Shown: piece by piece, positions 29,741 through 31,322 of the stretch | Position numbering within the stretch: position 1 is the first letter of the stretch | Layout of the letters: each line of letters starts with the position of its first letter | Notes under the pieces: generated by a model | What the model saw: only the letters and a program-made list of their open reading frames with translations | What the model was told of the DNA's origin: nothing | Databases searched by the model: none | Assembly (NCBI GenBank): GCA_903946745.1 | Contig: CAJAWW010000055.1 | Location: forward strand, 1 to 37,102 | Source of the DNA: an uncultured beta proteobacterium | GTDB lineage: Bacteria; Pseudomonadota; Gammaproteobacteria; Burkholderiales; Rhodocyclaceae | Length of the DNA stretch: 37,102 nt | Reading direction: 5' to 3' | Position numbers and translations under genes: made by a program

Positions 29741-30460
29741 GTGAGCGGCAAGCAACGCATTGATGCCGAGCCGGCGTATGTTCTGCACCTGCATCCCTAC
29801 AGTGAAACGAGTCTGGTGGTGGATGTTTTTTCGCGCTGCCATGGACGTGTCCCGCTCTTGGCGCGCGGCGCGCGGCGCCCACGTTCGGCGATGCGCGGCA
29901 CGCTGATGGCATTTCAGCCGCTGGAGCTGGGCTGGTTTGGCAGCGGTGAAGTTAAAACGCTGGCCAAGGCGGAATGGATGGGCGGCGTGCCTTTGCTGAC
30001 AGGTCGCTGTCTGTTGCTGGGTTATTACCTGAATGAATTACTGATGAAAATGTTGCCGCGTGAAGACGCCCATCCGGCCTTGTACGATGCCTATGGGGAA
30101 GCGTTGATGGCCTTGGCGCAAGGCAGCGCGGATGCGCCGGAATTGCGTCGTTTTGAGAAGACGCTGCTGAAAGAGCTGGGCTACGGGCTGACGCTGGACG
30201 TGGACGCTGATTCGGGTGCTCCCATTGCGACGGAAGCACAGTATTGCTACTTGGTTGAACGTGGTCCGGTTGCAAAAGTCGACGCTGGGGATACGCCGAT
30301 GCTGTCCGGAAAAACCCTGCTCGACATGGCCGCCGACGATTACACCGACCCGCGCACGCGCCAGCAGAGCAAGCAGTTGATGCGTCAATTGATTGCCCAT
30401 CACATGGGCGGAAAGCCGCTACATTCGCGGCGAGTTTTCGTGGAGTTGCAGGAACTATGA
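29741..30460 (+). CDS. recO: DNA repair protein RecO
   Basis: The 239-residue protein anneals single strands and loads RecA with RecR. The N-terminal OB fold has AYVLHLHPYSETSLVVDVFSR and the conserved LARGARRPRS. The helical middle has GYYLNELLMKMLPREDAHPALYD and RRFEKTLLKELGYG. It starts with GTG at 29741 with AAAGGGG upstream. It carries an exact 14-mer (30274-30287). A three-hairpin noncoding element separates it from pdxJ. Confidence 0.94.
   Translation: MSGKQRIDAEPAYVLHLHPYSETSLVVDVFSRCHGRVPLLARGARRPRSAMRGTLMAFQPLELGWFGSGEVKTLAKAEWMGGVPLLTGRCLLLGYYLNELLMKMLPREDAHPALYDAYGEALMALAQGSADAPELRRFEKTLLKELGYGLTLDVDADSGAPIATEAQYCYLVERGPVAKVDAGDTPMLSGKTLLDMAADDYTDPRTRQQSKQLMRQLIAHHMGGKPLHSRRVFVELQEL
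30274..30287 (+). repeat. Dispersed 14-mer copy (exact), in recO
   Basis: Exact AAAAGTCGACGCTG, read in recO as Lys-Val-Asp-Ala. Confidence 0.85.
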
Positions 30461-30472
30461 CCATCCCCCCAT

Positions 30473-30554
30473 CCCCCTTCCCAAGGAAGGGGGTGACGCT
30501 TGTTCGCGGGCTGCGCCCGCTCCATGTTCGGGCGACCCCTCCTTGGGGCGGCCC
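30473..30554. repeat. Three-hairpin GC-rich intergenic element
   Basis: Between recO and pdxJ three stem-loops follow in a row. The first is CCCCCTTCC/GGAAGGGGG with loop CAA (30473-30493). The second is GCGGGC/GCCCGC (30506-30520). The third is GGGC+CCCC/GGGG+GCCC with a 2x2 internal mismatch (30530-30554). No T run follows any stem, so they are not simple terminators. The layout resembles palindromic extragenic repeat units; whether copies exist elsewhere in the genome cannot be seen here. Confidence 0.7.
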
Positions 30555-30566
30555 TGCGGAGGAATT

Positions 30567-31322
30567 ATGATCGAACTCGGTGTCAATATTGACCACGTTG
30601 CCACGGTGCGCGAGGCGCGTCGAGGTCATGAGCCTGATCCGGTGTGGGCTGCCGTGGAAGCGCATCTGGGGGGGGCTGACGGCATCACGGTGCATTTGCG
30701 CGAAGACCGCCGGCATATTCAGGACCGCGACGTGCGGCGTTTGCGAGAGCTCACGCACATTAAGCTGAATCTGGAAATGGCGGCCACCGACGAGATGGTC
30801 GGTATTGCTTGCGATATTCGTCCGGAAATGGCGATGCTGGTGCCCGAAGGCCGGCACGAAATCACCACCGAAGGCGGGCTGGATATTGTCGGGCAGGAAG
30901 CGCGTCTGCGCGATGTCGTTGCCCGGCTGGGCGAGGCGGGCATCGTCACCAGTGTATTCATTGATGCAGAGCTGCCGCAGGTCGAGGCCGCCAGTCGCAT
31001 CGGTGTGCGTGTGTGTGAAATCCACACAGGCCCTTATGCCCATGCTTTTCATGGTAAAGGGCGTGATGCCGAAAGCCCGGCTGTTCTGGATGAGCTGGCA
31101 AAAATACGCGTGGCCGGTGCTGCCATTTGTGCCGCCGGGATGCGCTTCAATGCCGGGCATGCACTGAACTATTTCAATGTGCAGCCGGTGGCGGCACTGC
31201 CGCGCATTCGCGAACTGCATATTGGTCACGCTATTGTCAGCCGTGCCGTGTTCGTCGGCATGCGCGAGGCGGTGCGCGAGATGAAGCGTCTGATGCGCGA
31301 AGCGGCGGCAGCAGCGCGGTGA
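30567..31322 (+). CDS. pdxJ: Pyridoxine 5'-phosphate synthase
   Basis: The 251-residue TIM-barrel enzyme condenses aminoacetone phosphate and deoxyxylulose phosphate to pyridoxine phosphate. Start ELGVNIDHVATVREARRG is canonical; LREDRRHIQDRD, LNLEMAATDEM, VPEGRHEITTEGGLD, EIHTGPYAHAF and NAGHALNY are active-site loops. GGAGGA (30558-30563) right after the third hairpin of the intergenic element is its Shine-Dalgarno. Its stop overlaps acpS by GTGA. Confidence 0.97.
   Translation: MIELGVNIDHVATVREARRGHEPDPVWAAVEAHLGGADGITVHLREDRRHIQDRDVRRLRELTHIKLNLEMAATDEMVGIACDIRPEMAMLVPEGRHEITTEGGLDIVGQEARLRDVVARLGEAGIVTSVFIDAELPQVEAASRIGVRVCEIHTGPYAHAFHGKGRDAESPAVLDELAKIRVAGAAICAAGMRFNAGHALNYFNVQPVAALPRIRELHIGHAIVSRAVFVGMREAVREMKRLMREAAAAAR

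Follow-up and report, generated by a model that had tools for sequence, protein, structure and literature searches.

The recO-pdxJ gap and its palindromic element

The window, that is the whole stretch of 37,102 nucleotides that was analysed, carries on its plus strand recO (29741–30460; ORF list, Pfam RecO_N and RecO_C) followed by pdxJ (30567–31322; Pfam PdxJ). The 106 nucleotides in between (30461–30566, plus strand) were assigned by a family search and by model matches to an inserted palindromic element in sense orientation; the covariance model alignment to it spans 30460–30565. The element is framed by two copies of the word ATGA, both on the plus strand. The left one (30457–30460) contains the recO stop codon TGA (30458–30460) and matches the recO/pdxJ overlap of relatives, e.g. 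...GAGTTGCAGGAACT|ATGATCGAACTC. The right one (30567–30570) is the second copy of this junction word and includes the pdxJ start codon.

Three hairpins were located in the element, with all positions referring to the plus strand. Hairpin 1 (30473–30493), recognised from the fold, the inverted repeat and covariation, has a 3-base loop and a 9-bp stem of perfect pairs (30473–30481 with 30485–30493). Hairpin 2 (30506–30520), detected by fold and covariation, has a 6-bp stem which is also perfectly paired (30506–30511 with 30515–30520) and whose arms vary among copies with compensation. Hairpin 3 (30535–30565) was defined by covariation as a variable stem enclosing the conserved loop TTGGGGCGGCCCTGC. 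Its arms (30535–30542 with 30558–30565) form 8 pairs in the family, 6 of which are kept in the window copy as judged by eye, and the window copy folded singly favours other pairs in this region. The single-copy fold of the gap reached −54.1 kcal/mol (z −2.42; 4 of 200 shuffles were as good or better), which is only moderately better than chance for GC-rich DNA of such kind. That the three stems go beyond chance is therefore concluded from the covariation over 26 copies described below and not from the single fold.

The earlier note had described three strong hairpins in the gap, the absence of a terminator T run and a pdxJ Shine-Dalgarno sequence lying directly 3' of the last stem. The hairpins were confirmed, and no T run could be read off the sequence between 30461 and 30566. 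The position of the Shine-Dalgarno has to be corrected: GGAGG at 30558–30562 (plus strand), with a predicted duplex to the 16S tail of −9.5 kcal/mol, actually belongs to the 3' arm of hairpin 3.

The junction was compared in 80 named pdxJ loci, 67 of which had both genes aligned. In 39 of these 67 loci recO and pdxJ overlap by exactly 4 nt; gaps of −1 or 0 were found in 4 loci, of 9 to 47 nt in 18 and of 77 to 195 nt in 4, and the two remaining values (−756 and 941) are artefacts or rearrangements. The typical junction of relatives reads GAGTTGCAGGAACT|ATGATCGAACTC, and the window reads GAGTTGCAGGAACTATGA, then 106 bases, then ATGATCGAACTC: the same flanking words stand about 110 bases apart, with ATGA on both sides. 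A profile search detected the element in none of the 80 named loci. A copy does lie at the recO-pdxJ junction (L037) of one genome of the same family (G112), the PdxJ of which is 86% identical. Both copies may go back to one old insertion or to two separate ones, and the copy in the window could be old, as the G112 junction is also filled; the sample contains a single genome from the window's genus, which puts the insertion date beyond the reach of this comparison. At the same junction, a Sulfuritalea MAG (L054:2404–2500) has a gap of 97 nt with a different inverted repeat (GTGAAACGTGAAAA ... TTTTCACGTTTCAC); next come GGAGAAATC and the ATG of pdxJ. This palindrome is apparently unrelated to the element.

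A second clear copy was found in the own genome (G000, a draft of 2.83 Mb in 332 contigs) at G000:C316:6786–6885, bringing the clear copies to two, next to one match that is doubtful (E 7.9e-4). Two palindrome patterns searched in the same genome showed no excess over reversed controls (15 vs 18 and 12 vs 14 sites). The genome search for related palindromes that the earlier note had proposed thus delivered a further copy, and the more general palindrome patterns gave nothing above controls; the own genome is not rich in such palindromes and the copy number is low. The second copy lies within the coproporphyrinogen oxidase gene hemF (L002:659–1693, minus strand) and is in frame, a status which, for this and the other copies in ORFs, was judged from the reading frame alone. 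It contributes about 34 element-derived codons to an N-terminal glycine-rich segment, with GGCGGTGGC on both sides. The best PDB relative aligns to hemF residues 11–47 and from residue 78 on, with the element-encoded stretch between.

The second own-genome copy, the many copies in relatives and the frequent overlap at the relatives' junction uphold the proposal of an inserted palindromic repeat unit. The gap very probably represents a single copy of a palindromic element, 106 bases long, dispersed and non-coding, which was inserted at the ATGA overlap of the recO end and the pdxJ start. A leader fixed across distant relatives, which the earlier note had set against an insertion, is not what the 80 pdxJ loci and the repeat copies display.

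Distribution of the element and upkeep of its stems

Matches were obtained in 52 of 150 same-family genomes, the own genome included, and in 29 of 68 genera, with 5 candidates scored per genome; absence from the other genomes holds at that sensitivity. When 150 candidates were scored per genome, 48 matches were counted in G068 (E<=0.01), and 63, 66, 17 and 6 in G010, G128, G082 and G072, respectively (E<=1e-6). Copies also form arrays of up to 5 adjacent units, with 14 arrays among the 141 sites analysed below. No element was detected in 273 other genomes of the class (14 candidates scored per genome). With 3 candidates scored per genome, six of 250 genomes of the order matched, namely five of the same family, own genome included, and one of another family (G502). 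For G502 six copies were listed, the best being 88% identical over 102 query bases, and this patchy occurrence suggests horizontal transfer. A sample of 41 genomes of the order (96 candidates scored per genome) contained one genome (G456) with two weak model matches unconfirmed by the sequence profile. From the closest named PdxJ loci, the host family appears to be Rhodocyclaceae-like.

Plasmid and phage records gave no match at E limits of 1e-5 and 1e-2, and the left and middle parts of the element core had no hit in viral contigs. The right part of the core matches one IMG/VR contig (L306, positions 39–59) near the edge of the examined stretch, possibly in the host flank of a prophage.

Several smaller observations were made on individual copies. 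In two different genera the element precedes what seems to be the same gene (L039 of G029 and L150 of G068), both starts being followed by CCAACCCGTCAAGTT; this shared site parallels the one before pdxJ in the own genome and G112. Three copies of G128 (L254, L266, L268) have a common left neighbour, GCGAACCCCNTGGGGAATTG, perhaps another repeat adjoining the element. A repeat of G019 (L303, L304, L305) has only the hairpin-3 module GCTTTTCCTTGGGGCGGCCCGGCGGAAAAGC (a stem around CTTGGGGCGGCCCGGC) in common with the element and differs in its left part, pointing to hairpin 3 as a separable module.

Covariation was evaluated on 26 copies aligned without use of structure. The score was 0.329, compared with 0.103 ± 0.012 in shuffles, and was reached by none of 500 shuffles. 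Pairing cells amounted to 93.0% against 80.1% in shuffles and to <=60% when the partner was slid; as the tested structure derives from the window copy, the comparison with the slid versions is biased in its favour. Both sides had changed in 16 of 23 pairs. Stem 3 is the most variable and its loop, TTGGGGCGGCCC, is nearly constant. The palindromic stems are kept by compensatory change.

Departures from Watson-Crick pairing were counted in 103 model-aligned matches, an alignment that leans to the covariance model and so weakens any argument from G-U pairs. Sense copies showed 7 GT and 19 AC, antisense copies 11 GT and 13 AC (sense vs antisense, Fisher p 0.24), and half-classified copies 13 GT and 14 AC. 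Upkeep of the stems as DNA, at mobilisation or by templated repair, fits better than upkeep as RNA, since the latter would allow G-U pairs and no G-U excess was seen.

The same counts bear on another reading of the gap, in which pdxJ has a conserved RNA leader or a processing/stability element maintained for its RNA fold; the earlier note had offered an RNA processing/stability element as its other option. Three stems with the Shine-Dalgarno partly sequestered in hairpin 3 beside the start codon, strong two-sided covariation and the copy at the recO-pdxJ junction of G112 are what such a leader would display. It is nevertheless highly improbable: it would have to be reconciled not only with the lack of G-U excess over A-C but also with an element missing from every one of the named pdxJ loci, with copies whose flanking sequences differ and which occur in both orientations, and with the absence of any Rfam family match at gathering score in the whole window. 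An individual copy may still affect RNA.

Position of the copies and empty sites

The location of the element was analysed on 160 distinct near-full copies, retained from 221 profile hits after removal of duplicates, of hits missing more than 15 profile positions at either end and of hits no more than 60 bases away from the end of a locus; merging of array neighbours reduced them to 141 sites. The loci are the best matches from the sampled genomes together with most copies of three genomes and hence a biased set, and the gene calls are home-made from stop/start frames and GC3, so that figures for both strict and loose junction rules are reported. Under the strict rules, 38 sense and 33 antisense copies of the 160 lie at stop/start junctions, whereas of 3200 placements drawn at random in these loci 18 do; a further 66 satisfy the rules on a single side and 23 on no side, copies within arrays being among the 23. 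Under the looser rules and with arrays merged, the 141 sites divide into 91 junctions, 5 in-frame positions in an ORF (hemF was missed by the strict in-frame rule) and 45 others, the corresponding numbers for 3745 control placements being 94, 1216 and 2435. The sampled copies strongly prefer stop/start junctions of co-directional genes, in both orientations, a habit that is unusual among small palindromic repeats. By eye, several of the 45 other sites resemble junctions, and L189, counted as antisense, may lie between convergent genes.

The upstream stop of the 38 sense copies is TGA in 32; in 23 it lies within ATGA, and 22 have ATGA as start word. Eighteen read-through frames were listed, several of which run opposite to real genes. 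Their hosts include what we take, from reading the translated flanks, to be helicase-, RND-pump-, GlnL- and UvrD-like genes.

Empty sites were sought with flank pieces of eight insertions in G010, which led to 13 orthologous stretches in two congeners. None of the 13 carries the element at the orthologous site, and three of the loci have a match elsewhere (L274, L278 and L282, the last a weak fragment only). Eight pass directly from gene to gene (L273, L275, L277, L278, L279, L282, L284, L285), as in the empty CAAGCGCGCTCATTTGG versus the filled CAAGCGCGGTCATGAGAGC-element-GGACGGCGCTCATTTGG. Different palindromic repeats were found at the same place in L274, L276 and L280 and a short inverted repeat in L283 (all four loci from G120 and G072), and another short sequence in L281. 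The sites orthologous to L199, L189 and L207 are those with other inverted repeats, and L276 and L280 share a common type, CGCAAAGG...CCTTTGCGTCTTTGCG. Repeats of several kinds may have hot spots at gene junctions.

The observed positions could also arise if the element inserted anywhere and purifying selection left only the harmless sites, with no target preference for junctions. The rarity of in-frame copies within ORFs relative to the controls agrees with such a process, and so do the other palindromic repeats at junctions of this type (L274, L276, L280, the short one of L283, and L054). On the other hand, ordinary spacers would presumably be a far larger harmless target than four-base overlaps, and yet junctions account for 91 of the 141 sites. 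We regard random insertion followed by selection as a possible but rather doubtful explanation.

Filled sites often have ATGA/TCAT on both sides, although selection for stop and start alone could keep these words. Beyond ATGA, matching of the flanks was significant for sense copies (p 0.001 over the 8 bases upstream) and not for antisense copies (p 0.22). In a separate comparison, sense copies likewise scored above permuted pairs (5.45 vs 4.91), and antisense copies showed no excess (5.66 vs 5.46). A target duplication longer than ATGA is weakly supported. Two more specific ideas were discarded. Long target duplications of 9–11 nt, as seen in L040, L157, L166 and hemF, are not general; the antisense copies show no excess over permuted pairs. 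A choice of target by complementarity to the 5' arm of hairpin 3, hinted at by hemF and L183, was abandoned because the 3' arm is missing from the empty sites of L213 and L214; for the same reason, the 3' arm of hairpin 3 was attributed to the element itself.

Described repeats and a possible mode of spread

With dispersed copies that are absent at orthologous sites, the element is of a generally known kind, the small interspersed palindromic repeats (REP/MITE/RPE-like). In the open-licence papers searched, neither this family nor palindromes that target gene junctions were found described, the beta-proteobacterial repeat element (BRE) having been compared by description only.

In the REP survey of Di Nocera et al. 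2013, GTAG and CGTC REPs are single hairpins of 20–40 bp, high in copy number and located for the most part between co-directional or convergent genes (PMC3733652). The co-directional ones lie close to the upstream 3' end, with a varying distance to the next gene, and Thauera, one of the named relatives here, carries a GTAG-1 family, according to the same survey (PMC3733652). Like the element, GTAG and CGTC REPs are described there near or overlapping ORF ends, in arrays and as intragenic copies (PMC3733652). The element differs by its 106 nt, its three hairpins and its position between stop and start in both orientations. On its other strand, CGTC stands one base off stem 1 in 87 of 149 scored copies (14 of 26 aligned ones), and 17 of 160 copies have GTAG at their left boundary. 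Of the 26 aligned copies, 23 and 25 have C-G as their first and second stem pair, respectively, and the loop has 3 bases.

Seen as a REP/BIME unit, whether mobilised by a REP-associated tyrosine transposase (RAYT) or counted with the CGTC-tagged REPs, the element would share the small palindrome, the high copy number, the arrays and the intragenic copies with the published REPs, as well as the CGTC beside hairpin 1. No dedicated transposase is reported for CGTC REPs (PMC3733652). However, instead of a single hairpin with A-T first pairs and a loop of 4–5 bases as in CGTC REPs, the element has three stems, C-G as first two pairs and a 3-base loop. A search for the Y1 (RAYT-type) transposase domain in six carrier genomes linked no transposase to the element: it gave 7 hits in 4 of the genomes (1–3 each), none of the 7 with an element within about 1.5 kb, and no hit in the carriers G000 (draft) and G072. 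A longer, autonomous form of the element was not noticed either. REP/BIME membership is therefore considered very improbable. A RAYT-mobilised REP was dropped in view of the Y1 hits without adjoining element, and membership of the GTAG/CGTC REPs fails on size and stem make-up; a distant link to the CGTC REPs is possible from the CGTC word beside hairpin 1.

The BRE of Bordetella and Comamonadaceae is the nearest to the element by description, as judged without sequence comparison. It is about 90 bp long, GC-rich, tandem in places, both intergenic and intragenic, and beta-proteobacterial, and it sometimes extends a few bases into the end of an ORF; a single copy is present in Azoarcus sp. EbN1, a member of the Rhodocyclaceae (PMC3110155, partial text). 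Unlike the element, it is reported mainly from Bordetella and Comamonadaceae, and in that partial text overlap with ORF ends is the only positional feature reported, with no stop/start junction pattern (PMC3110155). The sole extra-family match among the 250 genomes of the order, that in G502, stands against identity of the two, in a sample that may not include Bordetella or BRE-carrying Comamonadaceae. That the element is the published BRE is considered improbable.

The MITE-type repeats ERIC/RU, BOX and Correia were also compared. These and other prokaryotic MITEs resemble the element in being non-autonomous, dispersed, structured and sometimes intragenic (PMC10969869). The junction location sets the element apart from them, and no parent transposase was found. 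An inverted-repeat search of the window copy and inspection by eye revealed no pair at the ends of the kind that MITEs have as terminal inverted repeats. Rickettsia palindromic elements (RPE) are likewise palindromic inserts that can be in frame in a host protein, as is the copy in hemF here. They are about 150 bp long and reported as in-frame ORF inserts (PMC10969869), whereas copies of the element within ORFs are a minority. In-frame insertion of the RPE type in unrelated ORFs was seen, on the reading frame only, in hemF and 5 of 141 sites, and is not the main habitat.

We tentatively propose that the element is mobile DNA of operon junctions which recognises ATGA in either orientation, duplicates it, carries outward ribosome-binding sites and so spreads with little damage while uncoupling gene pairs. 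The element probably inserts as DNA at the junction word, and its hairpins would be needed in folded single-stranded or cruciform DNA. An ATGA would then stand on either side of the insert, and neither the stop of the upstream gene nor the start of the downstream gene would be lost. As ribosome-binding site, the downstream gene would use the G-rich end turned towards it, with GGAGG in sense and a GGGGGGAAGGT-like sequence in antisense orientation. At recO/pdxJ, pdxJ would no longer be translated by coupling through the overlap but be initiated on its own some 110 bases further downstream, behind a Shine-Dalgarno that is partly paired in a hairpin.

In prokaryotes, four-base overlaps of stop and start occur frequently, with translational coupling as a potential benefit (PMC6728339). 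If the proposal is true, such an element could spread through essential operons and turn overlap-coupled pairs into separately initiated ones. An element that repeatedly lands at overlaps and leaves both genes readable would naturally supply many operons with uncoupling mutations, and the filled and empty sites of congeners would be matched pairs to test the worth of coupling. Selfish DNA could in this way live in a gene-dense genome outside the ordinary spacers.

Pairing with what we take to be the 16S tail was predicted for both orientations. Sense copies gave a mean of −8.1 kcal/mol, compared with −6.1 for shuffled sequences and −3.5 at random positions, and in the window the value before pdxJ (−9.5) exceeds that before the left ATG (−6.2). 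The predicted mean unpaired probability of the Shine-Dalgarno region is 0.26 in sense and 0.29 in antisense copies, and the strength of initiation is uncertain because this region is mostly paired in the predictions. Antisense copies reached −10.3 against −10.0 when shuffled, and their Shine-Dalgarno-like score may be a by-product of G-richness.
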